DNA from: a virus
Reading direction: 5' to 3' (one strand)
Virus record (IMG/VR): IMGVR_UViG_3300036852_000653
Coordinates: 1 to 46,142 of that record
Length of the DNA: 46,142 nt
Below are positions 2,218-45,636 of the stretch, one piece after another (positions within the stretch are counted from its first letter, which is position 1; each line of letters starts with the position of its first letter). Both the position numbers and the translations under genes were made by a program. The notes below the pieces were generated by a model. It searched no databases, was not told where the DNA came from, and saw only the letters and a list, made by a program, of their open reading frames with translations.

Positions 2218-4032
2218 ATGCCGATCACGGCTGAGCAGGTGGTCGAGTACTACGCAGAGCGTAAGAAGCGCCAGGAGCCCCGCTTCGCCGTCATGCGTGA
2301 GCTGGACCTGGCCTACGCCGGCGAGCTCGACGTGCCCCTCCCCGAGATCTCCCGCAACGAGAAGCCGATGGTGGCCAACCTCTTGCAGTCCGGCCTCGAT
2401 CAGACGGCCATGCGCGTCGCCTCCACCCTGCCCGAGCCCGACTTCCCTCCCATGCGCCCGGGCTTCGACGTCCACGAGGACCGGGCCCGCACCAAGGCTG
2501 ACATCGTCTTGTCCTGGTGGGCCATGAACGACCTGACCCTCAAACTGAAAGAGCGGGCCCGTCACCTCATTGGCTACTCCACCGCCCCCATCCGCGTCGG
2601 CTACGACCCGACGAGACCGTATCCCGTGTGGCAGGTCCTCGATCCCTTCACCACCTATCTTCCCCCCACCTCCCCTACCCGGGAGATGACACCGCTGGAC
2701 TGCATCCACACCTACACCCAGCCCCTGCGCTGGCTGGAGCGCCTCTACCCCGACCACCTCGCCCAACTCCACAAGGGCCATGATTCCAAGCCCGACACCC
2801 TCTTCACCTGCTGCGAGTACCTGGGCTACGACGAGACCGTCCTCGTCATCCTGGGCGAGCACCGCTCTGACGACGTGTGGCAATCACCCAAGGGCGCCGG
2901 CAAGCCCTTCATCGTGGCCGATCGCATCCCCAACCGGGCCGGCATCTGCCCGGTGGTCGCCCCCTACCGCATCGTGCTCAATCGTAACAAGCCCATGGGC
3001 CAGTTCGACGGCCTGGTCGGCGTGTTCTGGTGGCAGGCCAAGCTCATGGCCCTGGGCGGCCTGGCCGTCGAGCGCGACATCTTCCCCGACGAGTGGGCCG
3101 TGGCCCGCCAGGGCGAGGTGGTGGAGATCTTGGAGGAGGCCGACGGCCTGCGGGGAGAACGGGGCCGCCTCACCGGTGGCGACATCAAGTCCATCCACGA
3201 GTCCCCCGGCCAGCAGACCATGCAGATGCTCAACATGCTGGAACGGGCCATGCGCCTGGAGGGCGGCATCCCCGCCGAGTTCGGAGGCGAGTCTGTCTCC
3301 AACGTGCGCACCGGTCGGCGTGGCCAGCAGATCCTCTCCGCCGCCATCGACTTCGCCATCCAGGAGGCGCAGCAGATCCTCGAGGTGAGTCTGCGGGAGG
3401 AGAACGTGCGGGCCATCGCCGTCGATCGGGCCTACTACGGCAACGTTCCCCGTTCGTTCTACTTCGACTGGAAGGGGCGTAAGGGCTCGGGTACCTACGA
3501 CCCGGCCGAGACCTGGGACACCGATCGCCACTCCGTGCGCTACTCCTTCCCCGGCGCCGACCTCGCCGATCTCGTCATCTCCGGCGGCCAGCGTCTGGGC
3601 ATGAAGGCCATGAGCCGCTACCGCTTCATGGAGATCGATCCCATGATCGAGGATCCCGAGCTCGAGCACGGTCGCATCGTCGAGGAGAGCCTCGAGGAGG
3701 CCGGGCTCCAGGGCCTGCAGCAGGGACTGGTCTCCGGCCAGATCCCGCCCGACGACTGGGCCTTCATCGTCTCCCAGATCGTCGAGCAGCGCGTCCCTCT
3801 CTACAAGGCGGTGATGGCCGCCCAGCAGCGGGCCCAGGAGCGCCAGGCCTCGGCCGGTGAGCTCGGTGCCCCCACTGGTCCCGTCGAACCGGGCGCCCCC
3901 GAGGCCCAGCCCGGCCTGGCTGCCCCTGGTGCCGGTGCCGAGGTCCCCACCATCGGCCCCCCGGAGGCGGGCATGGAGAATCTCGGCCAGATCATGCAGA
4001 CGCTGCGTAGGACGGGGAGAGGGGCGGCGTAG
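2218..4032 (+). CDS. Portal protein
   Basis: A 604-residue protein with the layout of phage portals: acidic N-terminal segment, long mixed core with a PAEFGGESVSNVRTGRRG-type stretch, and a low-complexity Pro/Ala/Gly C-terminus. It would form the dodecameric ring at the packaging vertex and connect to the tail. ATG 2218 is preferred over the in-frame GTG at 2212 because GGGGAG lies five bases before the ATG and would overlap the GTG. The gene sits directly after the terminase, the usual place, and abuts the next gene without a gap. No internal maturation or protease domain is seen. Confidence 0.85.
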   Translation: MPITAEQVVEYYAERKKRQEPRFAVMRELDLAYAGELDVPLPEISRNEKPMVANLLQSGLDQTAMRVASTLPEPDFPPMRPGFDVHEDRARTKADIVLSWWAMNDLTLKLKERARHLIGYSTAPIRVGYDPTRPYPVWQVLDPFTTYLPPTSPTREMTPLDCIHTYTQPLRWLERLYPDHLAQLHKGHDSKPDTLFTCCEYLGYDETVLVILGEHRSDDVWQSPKGAGKPFIVADRIPNRAGICPVVAPYRIVLNRNKPMGQFDGLVGVFWWQAKLMALGGLAVERDIFPDEWAVARQGEVVEILEEADGLRGERGRLTGGDIKSIHESPGQQTMQMLNMLERAMRLEGGIPAEFGGESVSNVRTGRRGQQILSAAIDFAIQEAQQILEVSLREENVRAIAVDRAYYGNVPRSFYFDWKGRKGSGTYDPAETWDTDRHSVRYSFPGADLADLVISGGQRLGMKAMSRYRFMEIDPMIEDPELEHGRIVEESLEEAGLQGLQQGLVSGQIPPDDWAFIVSQIVEQRVPLYKAVMAAQQRAQERQASAGELGAPTGPVEPGAPEAQPGLAAPGAGAEVPTIGPPEAGMENLGQIMQTLRRTGRGAA

Positions 4033-4455
4033 ATGGTGCGCAAGAGGAAGGTCCCCGGTCAGCCGCAGGACCCCAGAGGCGGTGCGAGAGTAGGGACTCC
4101 GGGCAAGTCGTACGCCAACAGATCGGATCTCCAGGCTCAGCCCGTACGCGCTGCTCCCTCCAAGGAGTACGGCCAGCGGGCTGCCGCCGAGGCTTCCCAG
4201 CAGGCCGTCCCTCTTCCCCAGGCCCGGCCCTTCGTCGGCCCTGATCAGGTGCCCTCCTTCAGCCAGCCCTCCCAGCGACCCGATGAACCTCTCACTGCCG
4301 GACTGCCCTTCGGCCCTGGTCGCAACCCTGGTCCCATGGACCGCCCCACGGACCCGACGGCCGACGGTGTCGGTGACCGCCTGCGCGCCCTCTACCTCGC
4401 TTTCCCCACGGCCGAACTCCGAGAACTGCTCGAGGACCTGGAAGCGGGCGACTGA
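4033..4455 (+). CDS. Small Pro/Gln-rich protein after portal, unknown
   Basis: A 140-residue protein starting on the base after the portal stop codon, so probably translationally coupled. The N-terminus is basic with a PGKSYANRSDL segment; the middle is rich in Pro, Gln and Ala and probably disordered; the C-terminal 35 residues (RLRALYLAFPTAELRELLEDLEAG) look like an amphipathic helix pair. I have seen GKSYxNRSDL-type segments in other phage proteins at this locus but know no function. A head-assembly or portal accessory role is inferred from position only. Confidence 0.7.
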   Translation: MVRKRKVPGQPQDPRGGARVGTPGKSYANRSDLQAQPVRAAPSKEYGQRAAAEASQQAVPLPQARPFVGPDQVPSFSQPSQRPDEPLTAGLPFGPGRNPGPMDRPTDPTADGVGDRLRALYLAFPTAELRELLEDLEAGD

Positions 4456-4504
4456 TGGACGAATACATCGCCGAATATGAGTGGGCACCGGAGAGGGGAC
4501 AACC

Positions 4505-4714
4505 ATGGTGAAGGACGATCGGATCGACGCTCGGCACGAGATTCTGAAGCTGGCGAATCGACAAATAAAGATCAACCGGGGCAGTGGTGGTCCTGAACGG
4601 ATCCTATACATGCGCCATCTTCAAGAGGCCGTCGCGATACTCCGAGGGAACGGCATCGCTAAACCAGATCTCTTTATCCGGGCTGGGTTCAACAGCCGGG
4701 TCACGCGTTCATGA
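4505..4714 (+). CDS. Small basic protein, unknown
   Basis: A 69-residue protein (starts MVKDDRIDARHEILKLANR) with ATG 4505 preceded by GGAGAGGGG at a good distance; an upstream in-frame GTG at 4481 lacks such a site. It is basic and mostly helical. Codon use is less GC-biased than in the portal gene. A 13-codon reading frame (ATG 4711 to stop 4752) overlaps its end and ends in TGATG with the next gene, which may couple translation. Confidence 0.6.
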   Translation: MVKDDRIDARHEILKLANRQIKINRGSGGPERILYMRHLQEAVAILRGNGIAKPDLFIRAGFNSRVTRS

Positions 4715-4751: not shown

Positions 4752-7700
4752 ATGGGCGTCGGCTACTACATCCCCGACGCCGAGGCCACCCACCAGGCCG
4801 TCGAGGCCCGCTGGGCCCGCATCCGAGAGATGCGTTCCCAACCCCAGGCCACCGCCCAGGCCCAGTCCGCCTCCGCCATCCGGGCCAACTATCCCCACAT
4901 GCGCCCGGGCGAGGTCATGCCCCTGGCTGTCGCCGGCGTCTCCCCCGCCGATCCCATCGTCGGCCAGGTGGCCACTGCCTCGGCCAAGATGCGCAAGCGC
5001 CGCACCGGCCTATGGGGCTCCATCCGCGATGTGGCCTTCGCCCCTCTGCGCCTGGGCGCCTCGGCCATGGGCGAGCTCGGCGACGCCGCCTCCTTCGTCG
5101 CCAAGCCCGTGGTCCGCTACGGCACTGCCCTGGCCATGGCTCCCTACGAGCTCGGCCAGGCTGGTATCCGCACTGCTGCCGCCATCGGCGGAGAGGTGGC
5201 CGGTGGCATCGCCTCGGGGGCGGCGGTGGGCGGTGCTGTCGGTCTCGCCGGCGGTCCCTTCGCTCCCATCTCCGTGGCCGCCGGGCTCATCGGTGGCGGG
5301 CTGGCAGGCGGAGTGGCCGGCGGTCTCGCCGCCGCCCGGGGTGTCGATGTTCAGGGTGAGGTCACCAATCCCTTCGCTCAGACCACCCTCGGCCAGCACC
5401 TGGGCGGGGCCTCCATCGGCACCGGCTACCTGGCCGGGGGCGAGGCCCACCAGCGCCAGGCCAAGGCCGCCGCTGCCGCCGCCTCCATCAACGGCCACGC
5501 CCTCACTCCGGGCCGCATGCTGGCCTCCTCCGTGCTCGAGCCCGGTTCCTCCCCCTACAACCTCGTCTCCGGCCTGGTGGACGCCTCCCTCGCCCTCTCC
5601 AAGATCGATCCCACCTCCGCTGCGCTCAGTGGCTACACCAAGTACCGCAAGGGGCTCACCAGCTTCGAGATGATGGGCGAGAAGCTGGCCGCCGGCGCCG
5701 TCGATGGTCACCGCAAGGACTGGAACTTCGCCGCTGCCGGCGAGTGGCTCTCCGGCCGCAAGGGCGGAGCGGTCAAGGAATGGCTGGCCGGAGAGACCGA
5801 CTTCTCCAAGATCCGTCGCCAGCTGAAGGGGGTCGACGTCGGCGTCGTCTCCCGTCTCACCGATGCCCGCACCGCCGACGAGGTCGACGACATCCTGCGC
5901 CCCATGCTGGGCAAGGAGCTGCTGTCCACTCCCAAGGTGGGCGATCCCCGCCTCGGCTACACCGTGCGCCGGCGCATACAGACCTCCCGCCTGGCCCAGC
6001 AACTCCCTTCCGGGCGGCTCGACTTCAACGACGCCAACCAGGCCACTGACGAGTTCGACCGCCTGCTGGCCAACATGCGCGTCGGCGCCGACGAGCGCTC
6101 CACCCTCACCAAGCAGCTGGCCGACCATCTGGGTTCGGAGAACAAGCGCGACGCACGGCGCCTCGTCTTCGACAACACCCTTATGCGGGGCACCATGCGT
6201 GATGCCGATCCCGGCCTGACCAAACGCTGGGTCAAGCGCATGTGGGACCAGGACCGGGAGCAGGCCCGCTACTTCCTAGAGTCCGACGCTTTCCAGACCG
6301 CCCCTCACGGCCTCGTCCTCGGCGGCCAGGACCAGGGCCTGGCCCTCACCGGTCTCTTCGTCGACCACACCGAGGACATCTTCGCCCTCGACAAGGCCAC
6401 CATCCGCGACATGCGCCAGGCCGCCTCTCCTTTCTCCCGCCTCCTGGCCGGAGGCCAGTGGGACGCCGTCACCGCCGTGGGCGATTACGCCATGTCCAAA
6501 TGGCGCCCCCTGGTCCTCATCCGTGGTGCTTGGACGGTACGCATCATCGCCGAGGAGCAACTGCGCATGGCCGGGGCCGGGCTCAACTCCGCCTTCAACC
6601 ATCCCCTGTCCTACCTGGCCATGGCCATCGCCGACGACGGCACAGTGGCCAACTTCCTGAACAAGATGCCCGGGGGCGAGAACATCACCGCCCGTCTGGG
6701 TCGGGCCAAGGGAGGCCTGGTCGAGGAGTTCGTCGAGAACGTGGACGAGGAGGCGGCCCTGCGGGGCGCGGTCAACGAGTACACCCACGGCATGGGCCGC
6801 ACCCAGCAGCGCCGGGGTTGGCTGGACAGTGATTCCCGGCGGGGCCGCTTCGTCCGCAACCAGACGCAACAGACCTACCGGCGCTACCCCGACGGCACTG
6901 TCGACGATGGTTACGCCATGACCCGGGCCGAGCGCATCGAGCGTCTCAACAGCGATCCGGTGGCCCGCCGCGTGGCCCATGGCCGCCCCCTCGACGAGGA
7001 TCTCGCTCCCACCCACGCGCAGGCCGTGCCCGAGGAGATGCGCCTCGCTGGTCAGATACCGGGCCGAGTGGCACCCGAAATACCTCCGGGGCCTTCTCGC
7101 CCTGCTGTTCCTGCAGGTCCCCAGCCTCCCACCACCCAGCAGGTTCTCTTCGGTGGTCGTGAAGCAGGGGCTCCGATGCAGGCTGGCGGCTTCGTCCCTG
7201 CTTACGAGGGACCGGGCCTGCCGCCGATCCCCCCTCGCCAGCCCACCACCGCCGAGCGGATGGTTGCCGAGCGCGCCGCCCAGCCCGCAAACATCCCCAC
7301 CGGCCCCCAGCCCGTCGCTCGTCAGCTCGGCCTGGCCGGCATCGAGGAGGCTGGCCCCACCGCCCTCTACAACTGGTTCGAGAACGGCTCCGGTGCCCCC
7401 TTGCGCAACAAGCTCCTCAACGAGCCCGGCGGCCAGGTGCTTGGCACCCGTGCCGGTGTGGAGGACTTCTTCTCCAACACCCAGCGTGAGGTGGAGAAGA
7501 TCGCCGCCGGTGATGCCGCCATCCACACCGCCATCGTCGAGGGTCACCTCGACGGCGTCCCCATCAGACTGAAGAACGGGAAGATGAATCCCGAGTTCGT
7601 CAAGAAGCTGGAGGCCCGTAACGCCACCGGCCCCGAGTCCCTCCTCGGCGACGGCTTCAAGCGCTCGGACATGAAGTCCCGCTACGACAAGGCCACCGAC

Positions 7701-9500
7701 TGGCTCTTCGACAACTTCATGGGCAAGCCCAGCGCCAAGTTCTCCCGCTCGGTCACCTTCCGCCAGACCTACTGGAAGTCGGTCGAGGCCCGCATGCTCT
7801 CGGCCACCGCCGAGGATCAGGCCAAGATCCTGGCCGAGGCCCGCAAGTGGAAGCTGGCTCCCGAGCAGATTGCCACCCTGGAGCGCAAGGCCAAGCTCGG
7901 CTCCGGCGACATGACCCTGGCCGAGATCGACCTCCTGGGCAAGAAGGAGGCGCTGAACTTCACCAAGCAGCTTCTCTACGACTCGGCCGAGCGGGGCCAG
8001 CTCTCCGATGTCCTGCGCCTGGTCTTCCCCTTCGCCGAGGCCCAGAAGGAGGTACTCACCCGCTGGGCCAAGCTCGGCACCGAGAACCCCAAGGTGCTGC
8101 GTCGGGGTCAGCAGGTGATCGAGGGGGCCCGAGGCGCCGGCTTCTTCTACAAGGATCCCCAGACGGGCGAGGAGATGTTCGCCTACCCGGGCAGCGAGCT
8201 CCTGACCGAGAAGATGCTCGGTGTCCCCGTCAAGCTCGGGGGTCAGGTCAAGGGCCTGTCCATCTTCGGCTCCGGGGTCATGCCCGGTGTCGGCCCCGCC
8301 ATCCAGCTCCCCGCCCGCTGGCTCCTCTCCGACAAGCCCGAGTACGACTCCCTGCGCGACATGATCGACCCTATGGGCCAGCTCCAGGGCGAGGCCGAGG
8401 CCGGGCCCGAGGAGTCTCTCTTCGGCGCCTTCATCCCCGCCTGGGCCCGCAAGGTGTGGACTGCCGCTCAGGGGCCGCAGGACGACCGTATCTTCGCCAA
8501 CACCGTCTCCGACCTGTGGCGTTCGGGAGTCTCCTCGGGCCGCTATTCCACCGAGACCGAGGAGGACATCGCCTCCGGCCTGGAGCACGCCCGGGGCAAG
8601 GCCCGCATCGTCTTCCTCATTCGCGGCCTGGCCTCTCTCGGTGGCTCGCCCGCCGCCGTCACCCCCGAGTACATGGCCAAGGACTCCTCCGGCCGCTGGC
8701 ACATCGCCGACATCCTGCGCCAGGACTACCGGGACATGATGGAGGATCCCAACATCGGACCCGATCACGCCAACGAGGCCTTCATCGAGAAGTACGGGGA
8801 GAACGCCGCTAACTACATGCAGAGCTACACCTACACCCTCACCGCCGCTCCCAACTCCCCTGAGGCCTCCGCCTGGGTGCGAGCCAATCCCGAGCTGGCC
8901 AAGACCCACCCCGAGACCTACGGCTACTTCGCTCCCCAGGGCGAGGGCTTCGACTACCAGTCCTACCTGCGCCAGATCCGTGAGGGTGAACGCATCCCAT
9001 TGAAACCCGAGGAGTTCGCCGCCCAGGCCCAGAACCGCGTCGGCCAAATGATTTTCTACAATCTCAAGGATCGTTTCGGCCCCCGTCCCACCAAGCCCCA
9101 GCGGGAGTTCCTCACCCAGGCCCGGGGCCTGATCCGCAATGCCCTCCCCGGCTTCGACAAGCACCTGCCCCTGCCCGAGAAGTACAAGGCCGAGGAGCAG
9201 GTCGACAACTTGGCCAAGACGCTCGAGGATCCGGCGTTGGAGGGCAACGAGGTGGCCGACGGTCTGCGCCTGTACTTCCAGCTCCGCGACGTGGTCATCG
9301 CCCAGGCCAAGGCCCGGGGCTATGTCGACCACCGCCAAGCTCTGGCCGCTGCCCCTCTGCGGGCGGCGCTGCGGCAGTTCGGCGAACAGATCGTCGAGCG
9401 TGTCCCCGACTTCGCCATGGTCTGGGATCGCGTACTCGACCGAGAGATGAGGGAGGACGAGAGTGGCGGAGAAGAAGCCCAAGCCCTCGCCGCTGGCTGA
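4752..9500 (+). CDS. Very large (1582 aa) probable internal virion protein
   Basis: No enzymatic motif is recognised. Visible parts: a hydrophilic N-terminus, a Gly/Ala-rich hydrophobic stretch at about residues 137-196 that could span or disturb a membrane, a long helical middle, a Pro/Gln-rich linker at about 770-860, and a second helical half ending in an acidic tail. Size and position between portal and capsid genes resemble internal core/ejection proteins of podovirus-like phages, which leave the head with the DNA; this is inference. ATG 4752 follows GAGGAG and overlaps a short upstream frame; the frame is open from 4584 but its beginning is the shadow of the preceding gene. The stop lies 38 bases inside the next gene. 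Confidence 0.75.
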   Translation: MGVGYYIPDAEATHQAVEARWARIREMRSQPQATAQAQSASAIRANYPHMRPGEVMPLAVAGVSPADPIVGQVATASAKMRKRRTGLWGSIRDVAFAPLRLGASAMGELGDAASFVAKPVVRYGTALAMAPYELGQAGIRTAAAIGGEVAGGIASGAAVGGAVGLAGGPFAPISVAAGLIGGGLAGGVAGGLAAARGVDVQGEVTNPFAQTTLGQHLGGASIGTGYLAGGEAHQRQAKAAAAAASINGHALTPGRMLASSVLEPGSSPYNLVSGLVDASLALSKIDPTSAALSGYTKYRKGLTSFEMMGEKLAAGAVDGHRKDWNFAAAGEWLSGRKGGAVKEWLAGETDFSKIRRQLKGVDVGVVSRLTDARTADEVDDILRPMLGKELLSTPKVGDPRLGYTVRRRIQTSRLAQQLPSGRLDFNDANQATDEFDRLLANMRVGADERSTLTKQLADHLGSENKRDARRLVFDNTLMRGTMRDADPGLTKRWVKRMWDQDREQARYFLESDAFQTAPHGLVLGGQDQGLALTGLFVDHTEDIFALDKATIRDMRQAASPFSRLLAGGQWDAVTAVGDYAMSKWRPLVLIRGAWTVRIIAEEQLRMAGAGLNSAFNHPLSYLAMAIADDGTVANFLNKMPGGENITARLGRAKGGLVEEFVENVDEEAALRGAVNEYTHGMGRTQQRRGWLDSDSRRGRFVRNQTQQTYRRYPDGTVDDGYAMTRAERIERLNSDPVARRVAHGRPLDEDLAPTHAQAVPEEMRLAGQIPGRVAPEIPPGPSRPAVPAGPQPPTTQQVLFGGREAGAPMQAGGFVPAYEGPGLPPIPPRQPTTAERMVAERAAQPANIPTGPQPVARQLGLAGIEEAGPTALYNWFENGSGAPLRNKLLNEPGGQVLGTRAGVEDFFSNTQREVEKIAAGDAAIHTAIVEGHLDGVPIRLKNGKMNPEFVKKLEARNATGPESLLGDGFKRSDMKSRYDKATDWLFDNFMGKPSAKFSRSVTFRQTYWKSVEARMLSATAEDQAKILAEARKWKLAPEQIATLERKAKLGSGDMTLAEIDLLGKKEALNFTKQLLYDSAERGQLSDVLRLVFPFAEAQKEVLTRWAKLGTENPKVLRRGQQVIEGARGAGFFYKDPQTGEEMFAYPGSELLTEKMLGVPVKLGGQVKGLSIFGSGVMPGVGPAIQLPARWLLSDKPEYDSLRDMIDPMGQLQGEAEAGPEESLFGAFIPAWARKVWTAAQGPQDDRIFANTVSDLWRSGVSSGRYSTETEEDIASGLEHARGKARIVFLIRGLASLGGSPAAVTPEYMAKDSSGRWHIADILRQDYRDMMEDPNIGPDHANEAFIEKYGENAANYMQSYTYTLTAAPNSPEASAWVRANPELAKTHPETYGYFAPQGEGFDYQSYLRQIREGERIPLKPEEFAAQAQNRVGQMIFYNLKDRFGPRPTKPQREFLTQARGLIRNALPGFDKHLPLPEKYKAEEQVDNLAKTLEDPALEGNEVADGLRLYFQLRDVVIAQAKARGYVDHRQALAAAPLRAALRQFGEQIVERVPDFAMVWDRVLDREMREDESGGEEAQALAAG

Positions 9501-10206
9501 CCTCCAGGGTCAGATCAACGACATCGCCGCTCAGATCCAGGCGGCGCCGGCCACCACTCGCAAGCCCATCGGCCCACCCGCCGAGTTCCTCACCGAGCAG
9601 CAGCTCCCGGGCGCCTTTCTCGACGGCGACGAGTGGGAGCCCGCTGGTCTCCCTCCCGCTGACAAGTCCCGCCTCCAGCAGATCATGATCCGCTCCGGTC
9701 TCCTCTCCGCCACCGACTACTCCCCCGCGGTGTGGGACACCCGTACGGCCAACGCTTTCTCCCATGTCTTGGCTCTGGCCAACGCCAAGGGGATGACCAA
9801 CTACGAGGACGCCCTCTCCGAGTTCGCCCGCAACGCCGACGTCTACGGACTGGCTCCCAAAGCGGCCCGGGCCCCCCTCGTCGTCCAGTACGAGAATCCC
9901 GAGGCGGTGCGCCAGGTCATGCGCAAGTCCTCCATGAGCCTTCTCGGTCGTCGCCTCTCCGACGACGAGGAGAACCGTATGATCTCCGCCTTCCAGGCTC
10001 AGAACACCGCTTCCCAGCAGGCGAAGTACGGTGCCGGGGCAGCCGGCGGGGCCTACACCGCCCCGCTCACCGCCGAGGAATACACCACCTCCCAACTCGA
10101 GGGCCGCAAGGAGGCCGGCGCCCAGCGCTACCTCGACGCCTTCGACGAGATCGCCCGCTCCGTGGGCGTGATGGCCCAGCGGCCCGAGCAGATCGGAGGC
10201 CGCTGA
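9463..10206 (+). CDS. Probable internal virion protein, 247 aa
   Basis: GTG start at 9463 with GGGAGGA just upstream; the gene overlaps the 1582-residue protein gene by 38 bases and shares one base (TGATG) with the next. The protein begins with a basic helix and has a compact segment SGLLSATDYSPAVWDTRTA followed by a helix at about residues 65-110, a type I associate with virion-internal proteins of uncultured actinophages (from memory). The C-terminus has a RRLSDDEENRMISAFQ helix. No catalytic motif is seen. Part of the 4752-12939 block of probable inner-core proteins. Confidence 0.7.
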   Translation: MAEKKPKPSPLADLQGQINDIAAQIQAAPATTRKPIGPPAEFLTEQQLPGAFLDGDEWEPAGLPPADKSRLQQIMIRSGLLSATDYSPAVWDTRTANAFSHVLALANAKGMTNYEDALSEFARNADVYGLAPKAARAPLVVQYENPEAVRQVMRKSSMSLLGRRLSDDEENRMISAFQAQNTASQQAKYGAGAAGGAYTAPLTAEEYTTSQLEGRKEAGAQRYLDAFDEIARSVGVMAQRPEQIGGR

Positions 10207-11750
10207 TGGCCACCAACGTCACCAACCAGATGATCGTCGATGCCCTGCGGCTCCTGGGCCATGGTCGCATCCCGGCAGGTCCGTTCGACACTACCGGAGC
10301 GCAGAACACCGGCTTCAGGCGCCGGCTGGCCGGCGAGTACGGCGTCGGCACCACGGAATTCGAGCAGGCCAAGGCGATGGCCAGCGTCTGGGCCGGAGAG
10401 CAGTTCAGTCCAGAGTCGAAGACGACCAGCGCGCTCTATCAGGCGTACCAGGCCTTGCGGAACCGTGGCTTGTCCCAGGAGCAACTCATCGCCGTCACCA
10501 ACCGGGCTCTCGAGATCCAGAGAACCCAGGCGGGGACCACTCTCGAGCCACTCTACGGCACCGAGTCCATCGGTCCGAAGGGTGAGGTCGGGTTCTCCGC
10601 CTTCTTCCAGGCGGCCAACGAGTTGGCTCCCGGCAATGTCGTCAGTGCCGCCACTCAGGCTCTCACCGGTGCCGGGTTCGTCTTGCCCACGACGGTTGCT
10701 CCCCAAGCAGGTCCACCTGCCGGCGCTCCCGGGGCTCGCCCCTTTGGTGGGCCTCGTATGCAGATTGCTGGCCCAGCTCCAGTGGCACCAGCGGCTGGGA
10801 GCAAGGCCCAGGCTGCTGCTGAGCCCACCATCGCCGCCCAGGTCGCAGCGGGCATCCAGGCCGGTCTGGGGGCCGCTCTGCCCAAGCCGGCCACCCCGGC
10901 CGAGATCAGGGCCGAGGTCAACGCCATGTATGGGTGGGCGGCCGGCCTGGCCGACATCCCCGAGATCGCCAAGATCCTCGACGACGCCGCCATGGGCGTC
11001 ATCTCCAAGGCCGAGGTCGGCAACCGCTTCAAGGCCACCCACTACTACAAGACCACCAACGAGGCGGGCCGCAACTGGAAGATCCTCGCCGCTTCCCCGG
11101 GTGACGCCGCCGTCGAGCGCCAGAAGCGTCTCGACGGCATCACCAAGCTGGTGGCCGGTATCGGCATCACCATGGACCCCGCCCGCCTGAACCAGCTCAC
11201 CGACCTCTCCCTCTCCTCCGGCTGGTCGGAGACCCAGATCAGCCAGTTCCTGGCCAACGAGATCCACTACGATCCCACCCGGGCCAAGACCGGCGTCCTC
11301 GGCTCCTTGAAGGAAGCCCAGCGCCAGTACCTCGTCCCCCTCTCCGACCAGGCCATGTCATCCTGGGCCTCCGCCATCGTGGCCGGGACCAAGACGCCGG
11401 AGGAGTTCGACCAGTACCTGCGCGACGCGGCCTCGAGCCTCTTCCCCGCTCTGGGCGAGGCCCTCAAGGACCCGGCCATGTCCACCCGCAAGTACCTCTC
11501 TCCCTACGGCGAGGTCATTGCCAAGACGTTAGGCGGCAACCCCGAGGACATCGACTGGCTCGAGCCCAAGTACCAGCGCTTCATCACCCAGGTGGACGAC
11601 AAGGGCGCCCGCAAGGTCATGCCCCTGGCCGATGTGCAGCGCACGCTGATGGTCGACCCGCTCTACGGCTACGACAAGACCACCCAGGGCCAGCAGGCCA
11701 AGTCCTCGGTCACGGCCGGCCTTCTCAAGACTTTCGGGTTTGCCACCTAG
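10206..11750 (+). CDS. Probable internal virion protein, 514 aa
   Basis: ATG 10206 overlaps the previous stop by one base. Residues 1-120 are helical; about 140-230 are Pro/Ala/Gly-rich and probably unstructured; 240-514 form a mainly helical domain with a FKATHYYKTTNEAGRNW signature and several polar helices. No enzymatic motif is recognised. Codon bias is weaker over the first 600 bases than in the C-terminal half, suggesting a mosaic origin. The context (four large proteins between portal and scaffold) supports an inner-core or ejection role. Confidence 0.7.
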   Translation: MATNVTNQMIVDALRLLGHGRIPAGPFDTTGAQNTGFRRRLAGEYGVGTTEFEQAKAMASVWAGEQFSPESKTTSALYQAYQALRNRGLSQEQLIAVTNRALEIQRTQAGTTLEPLYGTESIGPKGEVGFSAFFQAANELAPGNVVSAATQALTGAGFVLPTTVAPQAGPPAGAPGARPFGGPRMQIAGPAPVAPAAGSKAQAAAEPTIAAQVAAGIQAGLGAALPKPATPAEIRAEVNAMYGWAAGLADIPEIAKILDDAAMGVISKAEVGNRFKATHYYKTTNEAGRNWKILAASPGDAAVERQKRLDGITKLVAGIGITMDPARLNQLTDLSLSSGWSETQISQFLANEIHYDPTRAKTGVLGSLKEAQRQYLVPLSDQAMSSWASAIVAGTKTPEEFDQYLRDAASSLFPALGEALKDPAMSTRKYLSPYGEVIAKTLGGNPEDIDWLEPKYQRFITQVDDKGARKVMPLADVQRTLMVDPLYGYDKTTQGQQAKSSVTAGLLKTFGFAT

Positions 11751-13069: not shown

Positions 13070-13552
13070 ATGGCTGACGACGATCAGAACCAGGACGACC
13101 AGGACGACGGCACTGACTTGGTGCCCCGGTCCCACATCCGCCAGCTCGAAGCCCAGGCCAAGGAGGCCAAGGATCTGAAGGAGCGCCTCACCTCCATGGA
13201 GCGCGAGAACGCCTTCGCCAAGGCCATCGGCACAGGAACGGGTGAGCCCTGGTTCGAGTACTTCCAGGCTGGCTACAAGGGGGAGCTCACCACCGAGGCC
13301 ATCCGCCAGGCCGTCACCGACGCCGGCTTCGCCAAGGCTCCGGCCGAGACCATTCCCCCTCCTTCCGCCGACAATCCTGCCGACCTGGCTGCTCACCAGC
13401 GCCTGGCCCAGGCACAGGCGGGGGCCGCACCTCCGCCGCCCTTCGATCCCGCCGCCGAGATCGCCAAGGCCACTTCCCAGGAAGAGGTCCTGGCCATCAT
13501 CGCCCGCTGCGACCCCGACAAGTACGGGGTCACCGGTCCCATCGTCACGTAA
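13070..13552 (+). CDS. Scaffold-like protein
   Basis: A 160-residue, very acidic protein (MADDDQNQDDQDDGTD...), with a coiled-coil stretch at about residues 20-50 (QLEAQAKEAKDLKERL), a FEYFQAGYKGELTTEAIRQ segment and a Pro/Ala-rich C-terminus. This arrangement and the position immediately upstream of the major capsid gene are typical of phage scaffolds, which guide capsid assembly and then leave the head. RBS AGAAAGGA, ATG start. Followed by a 49-base gap. Confidence 0.8.
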   Translation: MADDDQNQDDQDDGTDLVPRSHIRQLEAQAKEAKDLKERLTSMERENAFAKAIGTGTGEPWFEYFQAGYKGELTTEAIRQAVTDAGFAKAPAETIPPPSADNPADLAAHQRLAQAQAGAAPPPPFDPAAEIAKATSQEEVLAIIARCDPDKYGVTGPIVT

Positions 13553-36568: not shown

Positions 36569-37089
36569 ACGGGCACACCCCCGTCAGGGAAGCTCCGCTC
36601 CGGGGCTCCGCCCGCTCTGCGGAGCGTGAGCTTATTGAGCCTGTCAAGCCGAGTCAAGCTGGGGGGAACGTGGTCTGGAGAGAAGCAGTTGAGCCTGGGG
36701 AAACAGATTACGCGTGGGCGGCTGGATTTTTTGATGGTGAGGGATACGCCGGTATTACCGCCTGCTTCAACAAAAAGCGGGGGAAACATTACACACGCCC
36801 TGTTACCTCTATTGCTCAGAATCACCGGGAGGTATTGGATCGCTTTTGCTGGATAGTCGGTGTCGGTCGAGTTCGCGGCCCGTATCTCAACAAGAGCAAC
36901 GGACACCAGCGGAAGCCATACTGGCAGTGGCAGACCGACAGCATGGTGACCATCAGGCAGGTATATGGGCGTCTCTGGCCGTACCTCGGCTCTGTAAAAC
37001 GGTCAGCCTTTGAAATTGCACTAAGCCATCAAGGTCCAGGTAGAAGGAATGACCCAGTCACAGGACGGTTTCTCAGTGCAGATGTCTGA
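36562..37089 (+). CDS. LAGLIDADG homing endonuclease, single motif
   Basis: AWAAGFFDGEGYAGI is the LAGLIDADG helix; a core with VTSIAQNHREVLDRFCWIVGVG and a C-terminal SHQGPGRRNDPVTGRF follow. One motif implies a homodimer. ATG 36562 couples to the helicase stop, but GTG 36670 behind GGGGGGAAC would give a more family-like 139-residue protein; the first 36 codons include a GCTCCGC/GCGGAGC hairpin (about 36606-36626) that may be non-coding. GC content and codon bias are clearly lower than in both flanking genes, as expected for an invading element. It overlaps the polymerase start by 41 bases. Confidence 0.85.
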   Translation: MVNGHTPVREAPLRGSARSAERELIEPVKPSQAGGNVVWREAVEPGETDYAWAAGFFDGEGYAGITACFNKKRGKHYTRPVTSIAQNHREVLDRFCWIVGVGRVRGPYLNKSNGHQRKPYWQWQTDSMVTIRQVYGRLWPYLGSVKRSAFEIALSHQGPGRRNDPVTGRFLSADV

Positions 37090-39811
37090 GTCTGAACTCC
37101 TTGATCGGATCATGGCAGTCCCATCAGGAGAAGCAATTTCGGTCGATGTCGAGACCAACGGCGCCCCGAGGTGGGCCGGCTCCGAGCTGCGAGGTTTCTC
37201 CGTCGCCGCCGGCGATTGGTCGGTCTACGTGCCCGTCTCCCACCCCGGCGGGGGCAACTGGTCGAAGGAGTCGGCTTGGCGGGTGGCCTACCGCCTGGCC
37301 GGCCACGCCGGCCCGCTCCTCTACCACCATGCCAAAGGTGTCGACTGGCTCTCGCTCTCCCAGCTGGTCCCCGAGAAGGACTGGGCGGTCAACGCCTGGG
37401 ACACCTGGGTGGGGTGCTGGCTGGAGGCCGAGGGTCTCAACCACGGGTTGAAGGAACGGTGCTCGCTGCTCTTCGGTCACGACGCCGGCGACGAGAAGCG
37501 CCACCTCGACCGACTGCGCCGGGGGGCCACGCTCAAGGATCTCGAGGACGAGTACTACAACAGCAAGCAGAATGGATACACCCGCAAGCAGGCCCGGGCC
37601 CTGGCCGAGCAGGACCCCCGGCGCCAGCCCAAGGACTGGGGCACCTTCACCGTCGCCGACATCTCCGCCTACGCGGCCAAGGACGCCGAGCTGACGCTCC
37701 GGCTGTATCACCACCAGCAGGCCCTGATCGCCGATGGCCGCCCCGACATCGGCGTGGCCATGCCCAGGGAGATGGACTGGCAGCGCACCGTCTACGAGAT
37801 GGAGCGCGTCGGCCTCGGCGTGAGCGAGGCCCGGGCTCAGGTGCTACGAGCCCGGGACCTCGCTCGCCTGGAGCGTCTGCGGGCGGTCTTCGCCAGCCAG
37901 GGCATCGACCTGGGTGCCAACGCCCAGGGTCCGAAAGTGGCCGAACTGGTCTACGGGACGTGGGGCCATCGCTGTCGCTGGCATACCGACTCGGGGGCCG
38001 ACTCCACCGCCAAGGAAGCGCTGATCGAGCTGGCCCACGATCCCCGGGTCGGGCTCATCCTCGAGTACCGCCACCTGGCCAAGGCCATCGTCGGCTACTA
38101 CGAGCCCCTCCTCACCCGGGCCGACCCGACGGGCCGGGTGCATCCCTCCTACGGCTACACCCGCACCGGCCGGGTGACGGCCAGGGAGCCGAACCTGTTG
38201 ACCATCCCCCGCCCCGACAACGCCATCGCCGAGGTGCGGGAGGTGCTGGTGGCAGCAGAGGGGCTGGAGTTGTGGGAGTACGACTTGGCCCAGGCCGAGG
38301 TGCGCAAGGCGGCGGCGCTGTCGCGGGATCCGGCCATGCTGGCCATCCTCAACGACCCCGACCGGGACTTCTACTCCGAGATCGCCGCCGACCTGGACTG
38401 CCCCCGCCAGACGGCCAAGACGGTGGTCCTCGCCCGCCAGTACGGCGGGGGCCCGGCCAAGCTGGCCCAGGTGCTGGCCACCGAGGCGTGCAAGCGCACC
38501 GGGAAGCTGGTGCTGCCCGACGTCGGCCGGGCCCGCACCTTCGTGGTGCGCCTGGCGCACATGTTCCCCACCCTCGAGCGGGCCAAGGCCCGTTACGAGG
38601 ACATCGCCCGGGAGGAGGGCAAGATCCGCCTCTATCCCCCGGGCCGCTATCGCCACTTCCGGGGTCCGGGCTACCTCGACCCCTACAAGGATGCCTGGAA
38701 CGCCGGCTGCCAGGGCAACGTCGGCGAGTTCATCCGCGACGTACAGATGCAGGCCACCCCCCTGCTGGCCGGCATCGGCGGGCGCTTCGTGCTCAACGTC
38801 TACGACTCCTTGGTGGCCGAGGTGCCCCCGGGCACCGGCGAGGTGGTCGGCGTCATGCTCCAGGCGGTGGTCGACGACGTCAATCCGTTCAGCATCGTCA
38901 AGCACATGGTGGAGGCGAAAAAGTGGAGCTCACCGTCGGTAGTCTCTTCGCCGGCATCGGCGGCATCGATCTCGGCCTCGAGCGGGCGGGCTTCACCTGC
39001 GCCTGGCAGGTCGAGGTCGACGACTACTGCCGACGGGTCCTCGCCCACCACTGGCCCGACGTCACCCGCTACGGAGACATTCGAGACGTCGACTGGGCCG
39101 GAGTCGCCCCTGTCGACCTCGTCGCCGGCGGTTTCCCCTGCCAGCCCGTCTCCGCCGCCGGCCGCCAGAAAGCGCAAGAAGACGAGCGCTGGCTCTGGCC
39201 CGAATTCGCCCGTTGCCTTCGCCACCTACGACCCCGATGGGCGTTGCTGGAGAACGTGCCCGCCCTCCTCACGGTTGGCGGCGGGCGAGCGGCGCAAGAG
39301 GTCTTCGGGGACCTGGCCCTACTGGGGTATGACGCGGAATGGGGTCGCCTACCAGCTGCCGCCTTTGGAGCTCCTCACCTCCGGCAACGGATCTTCGTCG
39401 TTGCCCACGCCCAGCGCCGTCAGCTATGGAACCAACAAGGGGGGCTCGGACTCGAGCGACCCGAGGGGTTACTCCCGGGAGGGCAAGGCCCGGCCGTCCT
39501 TGGAGCACATGGCCAGGCACGACCTCTGGCCAACGCCGACGGCCAACGACCACCTCAACGCCGGCTACATGCACCGGAGCGGGAGGGACTACCCGACCCT
39601 GCCGGGAGCGACGGGGGCGGCTCCTCCCCGGGGCGGTGGGGCCAGTGGTGGGAAGCTGAACCCGAAGTGGGTCGCGTGGCTCATGGGCTTCCCCCTGGAC
39701 TGGCTCGAGATCAGCTCCGAGCTCTCGGAAACGCCGTCGTCCCCCAGGTCGCCGAGTACATCGGCCGCTACATCCTCGCCGGCGGACGGCGAGCAGCTCA
39801 CTCTGTGGTGA
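37049..39811 (+). CDS. polA: Family A DNA polymerase with 3'-5' exonuclease and long C-terminal extension
   Basis: 920 residues if read to its stop. Exonuclease: SVDVET (D33, E35) and YAAKDAEL. Polymerase: motif A DLAQAEVRK (D412), motif B RQTAKTVVLARQYGG (R453, K457), motif C NVYDSLVAEV (D586; His-Asp-Glu replaced by Tyr-Asp-Ser as in several phage enzymes). Homology ends near W626. Another 294 residues (Ser/Pro-rich, then WRTC..., WGMTRNGVAYQLPPLE, LWPTPTAND, LNPKWVAWLMGFPLDW) continue with no stop through the methyltransferase gene in the +1 frame. ATG 37049 follows an AGGTAG/AAGGA stretch; ATG 37082 is an alternative. Confidence 0.85.
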   Translation: MTQSQDGFSVQMSESELLDRIMAVPSGEAISVDVETNGAPRWAGSELRGFSVAAGDWSVYVPVSHPGGGNWSKESAWRVAYRLAGHAGPLLYHHAKGVDWLSLSQLVPEKDWAVNAWDTWVGCWLEAEGLNHGLKERCSLLFGHDAGDEKRHLDRLRRGATLKDLEDEYYNSKQNGYTRKQARALAEQDPRRQPKDWGTFTVADISAYAAKDAELTLRLYHHQQALIADGRPDIGVAMPREMDWQRTVYEMERVGLGVSEARAQVLRARDLARLERLRAVFASQGIDLGANAQGPKVAELVYGTWGHRCRWHTDSGADSTAKEALIELAHDPRVGLILEYRHLAKAIVGYYEPLLTRADPTGRVHPSYGYTRTGRVTAREPNLLTIPRPDNAIAEVREVLVAAEGLELWEYDLAQAEVRKAAALSRDPAMLAILNDPDRDFYSEIAADLDCPRQTAKTVVLARQYGGGPAKLAQVLATEACKRTGKLVLPDVGRARTFVVRLAHMFPTLERAKARYEDIAREEGKIRLYPPGRYRHFRGPGYLDPYKDAWNAGCQGNVGEFIRDVQMQATPLLAGIGGRFVLNVYDSLVAEVPPGTGEVVGVMLQAVVDDVNPFSIVKHMVEAKKWSSPSVVSSPASAASISASSGRASPAPGRSRSTTTADGSSPTTGPTSPATETFETSTGPESPLSTSSPAVSPASPSPPPAARKRKKTSAGSGPNSPVAFATYDPDGRCWRTCPPSSRLAAGERRKRSSGTWPYWGMTRNGVAYQLPPLELLTSGNGSSSLPTPSAVSYGTNKGGSDSSDPRGYSREGKARPSLEHMARHDLWPTPTANDHLNAGYMHRSGRDYPTLPGATGAAPPRGGGASGGKLNPKWVAWLMGFPLDWLEISSELSETPSSPRSPSTSAATSSPADGEQLTLW

Positions 39812-43191: not shown

Positions 43192-43325
43192 CGCCCCAGC
43201 CCCGTGCTTCGGTGACACTCGCGGCAGACCAGCCACGACCAGTCGGAGCGGTACTCGCCCTCCTGGTGGCCATCCATAGTGAACGGGCCGATGACGTCGG
43301 TGGAATCGCAGTGTCGGCAGGCCAT
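43188..43325 (-). CDS. Tiny zinc-ribbon protein (45 aa)
   Basis: MACRHCDSTDVIGPFTMDG... WLVCRECHRSTGLGR: two CxxC knuckles about 32 residues apart, a minimal zinc ribbon. ATG 43325 sits in a TGATG overlap. Confidence 0.65.
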   Translation of the reverse strand: MACRHCDSTDVIGPFTMDGHQEGEYRSDWSWLVCRECHRSTGLGR

Positions 43326-43699
43326 CACAACCACCGTTGACTGACGGCATAGCCGCCGCTCTTGTGCCAATCCGTCTCCACCCGATTGTTGTGATCGTTG
43401 GCGGGACACTTGTCGCCGATGCAAGCGAAGCCGTCGGGATAGAGCGTGCGCGACAGCGAGTAGACGAGGTCGAAACCCATATCCATGCCGCAACCGACAC
43501 GCTTCAGGCCACCATGGCGGGAATCGATGTGGGTCCCTATGGCCCGGGCCACCAGCCAGGAGTAGTCCTCACCATCGATCACAACGGATATCCAGCGCGT
43601 CATACCGGAAGCGGACACGTGGCGCAGAATGGTTTGGGCGGTGGAGCCGGGTGGGAGCATCTCCCGTAGTTGGTCGGCGGCTTCGGTCTGGTCGCTCAT
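43325..43699 (-). CDS. Conserved actinophage protein of unknown function (124 aa)
   Basis: TILRHVSASGMTRWISVVIDG, GCGMDMGFDLVYSLSRTLYPDGF and CIGDKCPANDHNN...GGYAVSQRWL reproduce a pattern I know from many actinobacteriophage genomes. His, Cys and Asp residues are conserved, so it may bind a metal; no function is established. It is translated behind structured RNA element 2, which ends in its GAGAGAGGAA ribosome-binding site. Confidence 0.75.
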   Translation of the reverse strand: MSDQTEAADQLREMLPPGSTAQTILRHVSASGMTRWISVVIDGEDYSWLVARAIGTHIDSRHGGLKRVGCGMDMGFDLVYSLSRTLYPDGFACIGDKCPANDHNNRVETDWHKSGGYAVSQRWL

Positions 43700-43783
43700 C
43701 GGTTGATTCCTCTCTCATCGGCAGGCATCGTCAGCGCAGGAATGCCAATCCTGCGGACGCCGGGCGGGCCGGCGTTTCGCCTA
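43700..43783 (-). ncRNA. Structured intergenic RNA element, copy 2
   Basis: Read on the minus strand: TAGGCGAA (its TAG is the stop of the upstream gene), stem ACGCCGG/CCGGCGT (43757-43763 with 43769-43775), stem CGCAGGA/TCCTGCG (43735-43741 with 43749-43755) with loop TTGGCAT, then CTGACGATGCCTGCCGA and the ribosome-binding site GAGAGAGGAA. The loop GGCAT can pair with the downstream ATGCC (pseudoknot). Copy 1 has different stem bases but the same shape, loop and tail. Confidence 0.7.
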
Positions 43784-43984
43784 GGTGGCCACCACGAAGA
43801 ACTCGGAATGGTTGTAGGTGGCAGGTCCGTAGCACTTTTCGGTGACGGTCCCGTCGGCCACCAGATCCCAGATGCGCTCCCAACAATCGGACCAGTAGAC
43901 CCGACCGCCGTGGTGGCGCAGTTGTCCGTAGGGAGTGTGGGTGACGCCGTAGGCGGTGATGCCGGGAGCGAAGGTAGGGAGCAT
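43781..43984 (-). CDS. Small protein between two RNA elements (67 aa)
   Basis: MLPTFAPGITAYGVTHTPYG... YWSDCWERIWDLVADG... with many aromatic residues, mixed alpha/beta. Its ATG follows RNA element 1 (GAGAGAGGAA six bases upstream) and its stop codon is the first triplet of element 2. Function unknown. Confidence 0.65.
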   Translation of the reverse strand: MLPTFAPGITAYGVTHTPYGQLRHHGGRVYWSDCWERIWDLVADGTVTEKCYGPATYNHSEFFVVAT

Positions 43985-44064
43985 GGTTTTTTCCTCTCTC
44001 GTCGGCAGGCATCGTCAGGCCCGGCATGCCAATCCGGGCGACGGGGCAAACCCCGTTTCGCCTA
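43985..44064 (-). ncRNA. Structured intergenic RNA element, copy 1
   Basis: Minus-strand order: TAGGCGAA (44057-44064, TAG being the upstream stop), stem ACGGGG/CCCCGT (44041-44046 with 44051-44056), stem GCCCGG/CCGGGC (44019-44024 with 44034-44039) with loop containing TTGGCAT, then CTGACGATGCCTGCCGA and GAGAGAGGAA before ATG 43984. The loop GGCAT and downstream ATGCC (44008-44012) can pair. Compared with copy 2, both stems differ in sequence but stay paired, which indicates selection for RNA structure; a riboswitch or translational control element is likely. Confidence 0.7.
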
Positions 44065-45111
44065 GTAGACCTCCTCCTCCTCCCACCACTGCTCCGGCTG
44101 CAAGAAGAATTCGCCGTCGTGCCAACCGAATGAATAGCCCTCAGGAGCGACGTTGTCGTTCAGCCACTGCTCAACTTCGTCGGCTGCCCACGACAACGAT
44201 TCATGTTCGTCGTCGGTGAGATCGGCGATGTCGGTCCGGCCCATGTTCGGGCCCATGTGCGCCAGCATGCGGGCAGCGAGGCCAGTGACCTCCTCATCGC
44301 GGTAGCCGTGGGCCATGGCGATGTCGACCATGCGGGCCACGCTGTATTGGCCCCAATGCCCGTCAATCCAACAGCCGGCGTCGGTCGGTGAAGCTTTGGT
44401 GGTGGTCTCTTCGCTGCGCATGGTCTCCTCCTGTGGGTGGCAATTCTCGTCGGCGCCGAAGCAGGTCTCGCCACGGTCGTCGGCATGACAGTGATCGCTG
44501 CGCATGGTTTCCTCCTCGTCGATAGCGAAGGTGGCACGTACGTCGGCAGGCCAGACCACGACCCACTGCGAGTAGGCGAATCTGTCGGCCACGGGTACGA
44601 AAGTCAGGGCGATGGCCAGGCCGGCGGGACTCTTGCCTGTCTCCCCATCGGCCAGACGCCATGGCCCCATGCCGAAGAACGAGGCGTTGGCATGGTCGAC
44701 GAAGGTGAAGCGGCGGCCGGCGTAGGTGGCGACGTCGTAAGGGTCGAAGGCGGGCGTGGTCTCGGGCTCGGAGCTCGGGGCGGCGGTGGCGCTCTCCTCC
44801 TGGGTATGCCAGTCGAGGTGGTATTCGGCATTCTCCGGAAGAATGACGAGTGGACAGCCAGCGGAGCATTCCATGGTGCCATCGGCCCGGAGCGTCAGCG
44901 TGGGCCCGGGGCGATGGCGCCTACGGTCCGGGGTTCGACCGTGCCAGGCGAGATGGGCGCTGGCTTCGGTTGCCGCCATGCCAGCCAGCGAGACGGTCCA
45001 GACCAGTCCGCAAGTGCAGGTGATCTCGGTACCGCCGACGCCGCCGGGACCGGAGGCCGAGACGGTACGGGTAGTAGTGGTGTGGGCCTGGGGAGTTTCG
45101 TGTTTGCTCAT
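44062..45111 (-). CDS. Unknown multi-part protein with zinc fingers and in-frame repeats (349 aa)
   Basis: ATG 45111. Residues 30-60 (ITCTCGLVWTVSLAGMAATEASAHLAWHG) and 75-105 (MECSAGCPLV...YHLDWHT) are two CC/HH-type finger-like units; a globular part (AGRRFTFVDHANASFFGMGPWRLADG) follows. At M203 (44505) and M231 (44421) the frame contains ATGCGCAGCGA starts, each behind a GGAGGA site, 84 bases apart, so shorter C-terminal products of 147 and 119 residues may be made. The C-terminal domain (GRTDIADLTDDEHESLSWAADEVEQWL) is acidic and helical. First gene of the leftward operon. Confidence 0.6.
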   Translation of the reverse strand: MSKHETPQAHTTTTRTVSASGPGGVGGTEITCTCGLVWTVSLAGMAATEASAHLAWHGRTPDRRRHRPGPTLTLRADGTMECSAGCPLVILPENAEYHLDWHTQEESATAAPSSEPETTPAFDPYDVATYAGRRFTFVDHANASFFGMGPWRLADGETGKSPAGLAIALTFVPVADRFAYSQWVVVWPADVRATFAIDEEETMRSDHCHADDRGETCFGADENCHPQEETMRSEETTTKASPTDAGCWIDGHWGQYSVARMVDIAMAHGYRDEEVTGLAARMLAHMGPNMGRTDIADLTDDEHESLSWAADEVEQWLNDNVAPEGYSFGWHDGEFFLQPEQWWEEEEVY

Positions 45112-45162: not shown

Positions 45163-45367
45163 TAGCTGAGGATGGCCCCCCCGGGCCACCCTCGACCTCA
45201 GCTAGAGGGTTAGGGTTTCGGAGATCACGACACGGGGCGACAAGGGCGAGCTCCGGCGAACTCTCTACCTCAGCTAGAGGGTTAGCCAAAGTGCCGACCC
45301 CGCCCAACCCTCGACCACTACGGCGTGAACCATCGCTCACACCTTCAACCTGAGGTAGAGGTCGAGG
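45163..45367. repeat. CCTCAGCTAGAGG-type repeat cluster
   Basis: The 19-base sequence acctcagctagagggttag occurs at 45195-45213 and again at 45267-45285, 72 bases apart. Related, partly inverted pieces lie at 45163-45171 (TAGCTGAGG) and 45349-45367 (CCTGAGGTAGAGGTCGAGG). The core is near-palindromic. Multiple copies just upstream of the leftward operon suggest binding sites for a repressor or activator. Confidence 0.6.
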
Positions 45368-45608
45368 TGGGGCCGGCAGTGCGACAGGTGGGCAGAGTGA
45401 ACGAGTTCTGGGGGTCGGAGCTCGAGGAGGCCTGCCGGAGCCTTCCTAGACCATGTTCACTAAGATGGTGGACATAGTGGGCGAAGGGGACATGGTGGAG
45501 TAGGGCCCGAACGCACGCAGGCCGCACGCAGGCACGTAGGCGCACGGGGGGCGACCGCCCGAAATGTCCGTTTTACGCGCCATGTAAAAAGAAATGCATA
45601 GGGGTGCA

Positions 45609-45636
45609 AAAGAAAGGCCCTTGAGGGCCTTTCTTT
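45609..45636. terminator. Bidirectional rho-independent terminator
   Basis: Perfect 12-bp stem AAAGAAAGGCCC / GGGCCTTTCTTT with loop TTGA. The A-rich and T-rich ends make it usable from both strands. It lies in the non-coding control region and would insulate the leftward operon from the late operon promoter. Confidence 0.8.

Follow-up and report, generated by a model that had tools for sequence, protein, structure and literature searches.

We found that two elements of about 65 nt each, lying ahead of consecutive genes on the minus strand of a metagenomic virus record (the window, 46,142 bases, analysed over its whole length), are almost certainly self-cleaving type II hammerhead ribozymes, with a predicted pseudoknot between loop I and the 3' tail, that would process a polycistronic phage transcript. 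Both elements belong to this family by sequence and structure, keep an intact core, and are placed between genes, in an arrangement that recurs across many phages. A preliminary description of the same DNA had reported two structured intergenic elements before consecutive genes, giving no strand. The elements are present, and the comparison with Rfam that it called for placed them in a described family, RF02276 (Hammerhead_II), an outcome that it had itself named as speaking against novelty. Its remark that they belong to no known riboswitch class is literally true and, given this clear match, misleading.

Both elements match the type II hammerhead family

Copy 1 scored 40.0 bits against the RF02276 gathering threshold of 37, and copy 2 scored 36.0 bits, 1 bit below it; each aligned to positions 1-66 of the 66 in the model (Table 1). 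Over the whole window, the E-values were 8.3e-5 (copy 1) and 9e-4 (copy 2), which is beyond chance, and copy 2 reached 1.2e-5 in a local search. Besides RF02276, no Rfam 15 family, riboswitch families included, was detected at the locus up to E = 1. Elsewhere in the window, a third RF02276 match (13383-13448, minus strand, 24.2 bits) has a broken core (GAAG, CUGGUGA) and lies inside long opposite-strand frames; we judged it a chance match.

Read 5' to 3', each element consists of GAA, stem III, C17, stem I, and CUGANGA, with stems I and III closed by loops and stem II (AGGC/GCCU) at the open end, as in the type II topology. Both copies retain all the fixed nucleotides of the hammerhead core: C3-U-G-A-N-G-A9 reads CUGACGA, and G12-A13-A14 together with the A15.1-U16.1 pair that closes stem III reads GAA followed by ACG...CGU. 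Nucleotide 17, which must not be G and is usually C, is C43756 in copy 1 and C44040 in copy 2. The paired strands listed in the preliminary description recur as given, ACGCCGG/CCGGCGT and CGCAGGA/TCCTGCG in copy 1 and ACGGGG/CCCCGT and GCCCGG/CCGGGC in copy 2, as do the segments common to both copies, TTGGCAT, CTGACGATGCCTGCCGA, and GAGAGAGGAA.

The shared segment CTGACGATGCCTGCCGA comprises the core CUGANGA, stem II, and the pseudoknot tail: CTGACGA (core C3-A9) is followed by one extra U, then by GCC(U), the 3' strand of stem II, and then by the tail GCCGA. The segment TAGGCGAA comprises the 5' strand of stem II (TAGGC) and the core GAA (G12-A13-A14), and its TAG ends the upstream frame in both copies, as had been noted. 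The tail GCCGA is complementary to loop I UUGGC, and this pairing, which is frequent in type II hammerheads though not universal, is possible in both copies. That the loop pairs with the shared strand had been proposed before; this was right in kind and wrong in register, since an active ribozyme fits loop UUGGC with the tail GCCGA downstream of stem II, and the register GGCAT/ATGCC is unfit because core A9 and stem II would be consumed.

The elements precede ribosome-binding sites, and their loop and tail are conserved, which would also suit a new structured regulatory RNA, either riboswitch-like or a protein-bound leader, that would regulate the two genes behind them and would not cleave itself. 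The probability of such an RNA is close to nil, given that the invariant hammerhead core is correctly placed in both copies, the full RF02276 model aligns, and a riboswitch would not need a hammerhead core. The glmS ribozyme-riboswitch is a self-cleaving mRNA element upstream of a gene, as is predicted for the pair; it needs a metabolite cofactor and has a structure unrelated to the hammerhead, whereas nothing at the pair points to a ligand.

Table 1. Features of the hammerhead locus (window coordinates)
Feature	Position	Strand	Remark
Type II hammerhead copy 1, between 67-aa and 124-aa genes	43716..43782	minus	RF02276 40.0 bits; MFE fold is a three-way junction
Type II hammerhead copy 2, between 349-aa and 67-aa genes	44000..44063	minus	RF02276 36.0 bits; core complete
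Predicted cleavage site copy 1, 3' of C17 = C43756, after GU	43755..43756	minus	inferred from core position
Predicted cleavage site copy 2, 3' of C17 = C44040, after GU	44039..44040	minus	inferred from core position
Copy 1 stem III hairpin ACGCCGG-cccgc-CCGGCGT	43757..43775	minus	would be upstream mRNA 3' end
Copy 1 stem I hairpin CGCAGGA-TTGGCAT-TCCTGCG	43735..43755	minus	would be downstream mRNA 5' end
Copy 2 stem III hairpin ACGGGG-tttg-CCCCGT	44041..44056	minus	
Copy 2 stem I hairpin GCCCGG-ATTGGCATG-CCGGGC	44019..44039	minus	
TAG stop of 67-aa gene, overlaps ribozyme stem II 5' strand	43781..43783	minus	
TAG stop of 349-aa gene, overlaps ribozyme stem II 5' strand	44062..44064	minus	
67-aa gene between the two ribozymes	43781..43984	minus	no PHROG or Pfam match
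124-aa gene downstream of copy 1	43325..43699	minus	PHROG 12365, unknown function
349-aa gene upstream of copy 2	44062..45111	minus	sub-threshold DUF4178 match; start codon uncertain

Neither copy is unusually stable, the folding energies giving z = -0.84 and -0.64 against dinucleotide shuffles. Thermodynamic stability is therefore uninformative, and it is the family match and the comparative data that carry the argument. By energy alone, the MFE fold of copy 1 is the hammerhead three-way junction; for copy 2 a competing fold exists, and the hammerhead is 2 kcal/mol less stable than the MFE fold, with pseudoknot energy left out of this figure. That the MFE fold of copy 2 is not the hammerhead and that its score falls below gathering would fit ribozymes that are present and inactive, being either relics or simple spacers or hairpins that serve translational coupling. 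We consider this unlikely, because the core is intact in both copies despite diverged stems in which pairing is kept, whereas decay should strike the core nucleotides first, or at least as readily as the rest. One point that counts against the assignment to active hammerheads is the extra U that separates A9 from stem II, although 94 of the 346 relatives among the matches listed likewise continue with TGCC.

Stem and loop-tail pairing is kept among viral relatives

Viral contigs were searched by core-only patterns, and candidates were called in the retrieved loci by a core-plus-stems rule. At least 346 distinct type II hammerhead candidates were obtained from viral-contig loci, and the cleavage position is C in 330 of 346 among the matches listed. 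For the stems, we used a pattern that requires only the core, GCC, one A-T pair, and one C-G pair, which makes the test a fair one; its matches listed number 133. All seven further stem pairs are formed in 102 of these 133 listed matches, compared to 1.5% when the 3' halves are taken from other ribozymes, phage kinship being ignored in both figures, and five or six pair types occur at each of the seven tested positions in the same 133. The selection on RNA structure that the preliminary description had claimed is borne out by these counts. Loop I and the 3' tail can form at least 4 bp in 225 of 262 relatives among the matches listed, compared to 138 on average and never more than 159 when the tails were shuffled 200 times, again with phage kinship ignored.

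TA precedes GG in 19 of 197 pattern-found relatives and AA does so in 96 of 197 (both among the matches listed). We rejected the TAG within stem II as a special feature; the recurring trait is a stop codon close upstream. Four viral contigs (L001-L004) that match the 17-nt shared strand have no hammerhead beside the match and are thus probably chance coding matches. The sole other record with the very sequences of the pair (L005) is the same phage, 100% identical over 9,851 nt, and is therefore not independent support.

The ribozymes fill gaps between genes on the same strand

In minus-strand reading order, the 349-aa frame ends in TAG at 44064-44062 and is followed by copy 2, GAGAGAGGAA, and the ATG of the 67-aa gene, which likewise ends in TAG and is followed by copy 1, GAGAGAGGAA, and the ATG of the 124-aa gene. 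Many relatives are placed in the same way. Among the matches listed, 74% of 323 candidates have an upstream frame of 60 codons or more whose stop lies 4-24 nt ahead of the core (8% at random places, 13% antisense), and 72% of the 323 have a start codon plus Shine-Dalgarno-like site 15-40 nt downstream (8% random, 3% antisense); the upstream stop and the downstream start occur together in 54% of these listed candidates, compared to 1% at random places and 0% antisense. This placement, with a stop before and a start after, indicates that the ribozyme fills the gap between two same-strand genes. A scan for promoters of the sigma-70-like type found none around the window's pair, which fits a read-through transcript.

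The ribozyme position is not conserved with the 124-aa gene, since distant relatives of that gene (roughly 36-50% identity) have no hammerhead beside it; in one locus (L237), a single hammerhead-like match lies about 2.9 kb from such a relative. This agrees with published work, in which the genes flanked by hammerheads were said to vary. Two or more hammerheads, and up to 12, are found on 80 of 174 locus strands among the matches listed. Such frequent multiple copies, the adjacent-gene relatives that lack the element, and the similarity of the two copies in the window (83% identity over 59 nt) would be consistent with a duplicated intergenic repeat, a recombination cassette in which RNA structure is incidental. 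The differences between the two copies fall mostly in the stems, where pairing is kept, and a cassette would account for the spread of the element, not for its kept core and compensated stems. We therefore hold an incidental structure to be very improbable; spread as a cassette is in itself compatible with the hammerhead explanation.

Cultured phages and other features of the window

No close phage DNA relatives were found among 50,697 phage records when two parts of the genome were searched by megablast. In Rfam, Streptomyces phage Alvy has 10 RF02276 matches above gathering, in a small minus-strand gene block adjoining the integrase gene, and Streptomyces phage Daudau has 8. In the Alvy locus (L233; NC_054669, 40000-53011), two type II hammerheads stand back to back on the minus strand at 11396-11460 and 11463-11529, 2 nt apart, and double cleavage would free a fragment of about 65 nt; annotated gene 89 holds the first of them wholly and the second partly. 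Hammerheads overlap the annotated genes at 4301-4678, 5004-5834, 9750-9884, 10037-10111, and 11202-11477 of this locus, and those at 3072-3290, 8092-8499, and 10877-11047 of locus L234. These overlaps, mostly at gene 5' ends, suggest that the annotation set start codons too far upstream or includes small genes that are spurious.

Three further features of the window were recorded. A strong short inverted repeat, AGAAAGGCCC...GGGCCTTTCT, at 45606-45634 matched ctRNA_p42d below threshold (25.4 bits, gathering 50) and is more likely a terminator-like hairpin than this RNA. Direct repeats with CCTCAGCTAGAGGGTTAG lie at 45181-45285, where the DNA ahead of the minus-strand gene block is apparently non-coding and possibly an operator or promoter region. 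On the plus strand, a family A DNA polymerase frame (37049-39811), whose C-terminal part (690-896) matches the phage DNA methyltransferase PHROG phrog_1008, is apparently a DNA polymerase/methyltransferase fusion.

Discussion

Judging from its sequence, the pair of ribozymes probably cuts a long phage mRNA into single-gene pieces with hairpin ends. On the minus-strand polycistronic phage transcript, each element would fold co-transcriptionally into the stem III hairpin, the stem I hairpin, and a short stem II to which the upstream stop codon contributes in part, and the loop I/3'-tail pseudoknot would lock the active form. After self-cutting 3' of C17, the upstream mRNA would end in the stem III hairpin and carry a 2',3'-cyclic phosphate, and the downstream mRNA would have a 5'-OH and start with the stem I hairpin, with the ribosome-binding site close behind. 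The predicted cuts (43756/43755 and 44040/44039) are 284 nt apart and would release the 67-aa gene on a monocistronic mRNA of 284 nt. The likely benefit would be that mRNA stability and translation are controlled gene by gene within one transcript.

Natural type II hammerheads, their loop I/3'-tail pseudoknot, and its importance for the cleavage rate were described by Perreault et al. (2011; PMC3088659). The same study reported prophage hammerhead clusters that flank single genes or short gene blocks, proposed that they process long phage RNAs, and observed cleavage of three tandem sets in vitro, the Agrobacterium set also in E. coli. The window's pair resembles that type (RF02276, PMC3088659) in that stems I and III are closed by loops and stem II is open, the core reads CUGANGA/GAA, the cleavage-site nucleotide is C, loop I can form a pseudoknot with the 3' tail, and tandem copies flank a single small phage gene. 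It departs from the description only in details, namely the extra U before stem II and the upstream TAG stop that lies within the stem II 5' strand; other viral type II hammerheads show these as well. Because the type, the pseudoknot, and tandem gene-flanking phage clusters were already published (PMC3088659), the pair constitutes two further members of a described ribozyme family in a known kind of setting. The HDV-like theta ribozymes of gut phages (PMC10879173) are likewise small self-cleaving phage ribozymes with a proposed role in RNA processing; they have another fold and are linked to phage suppressor tRNAs, not to gaps between protein genes.

It is plausible, though we stop short of favouring it, that type II hammerheads of tailed phages are a widespread gene-gap device, with up to a dozen in a region, each reaching from the stop of a small gene to the next ribosome-binding site, that would split one transcript into mRNAs of one gene each, which would begin with a stem I hairpin and finish with a stem III hairpin, and that the scale and regular placement of this device in free phages may be undocumented in the open-licence literature. 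A 2017 review (PMC6155905) restated the association with phages, named small non-conserved ORFs as frequent neighbours of hammerheads on either side, and called their function open, so that their role in prokaryotes and their phages was at that time still an open question. Culturable Streptomyces phages with 8-10 copies each make this role testable by RNA-end mapping during infection.
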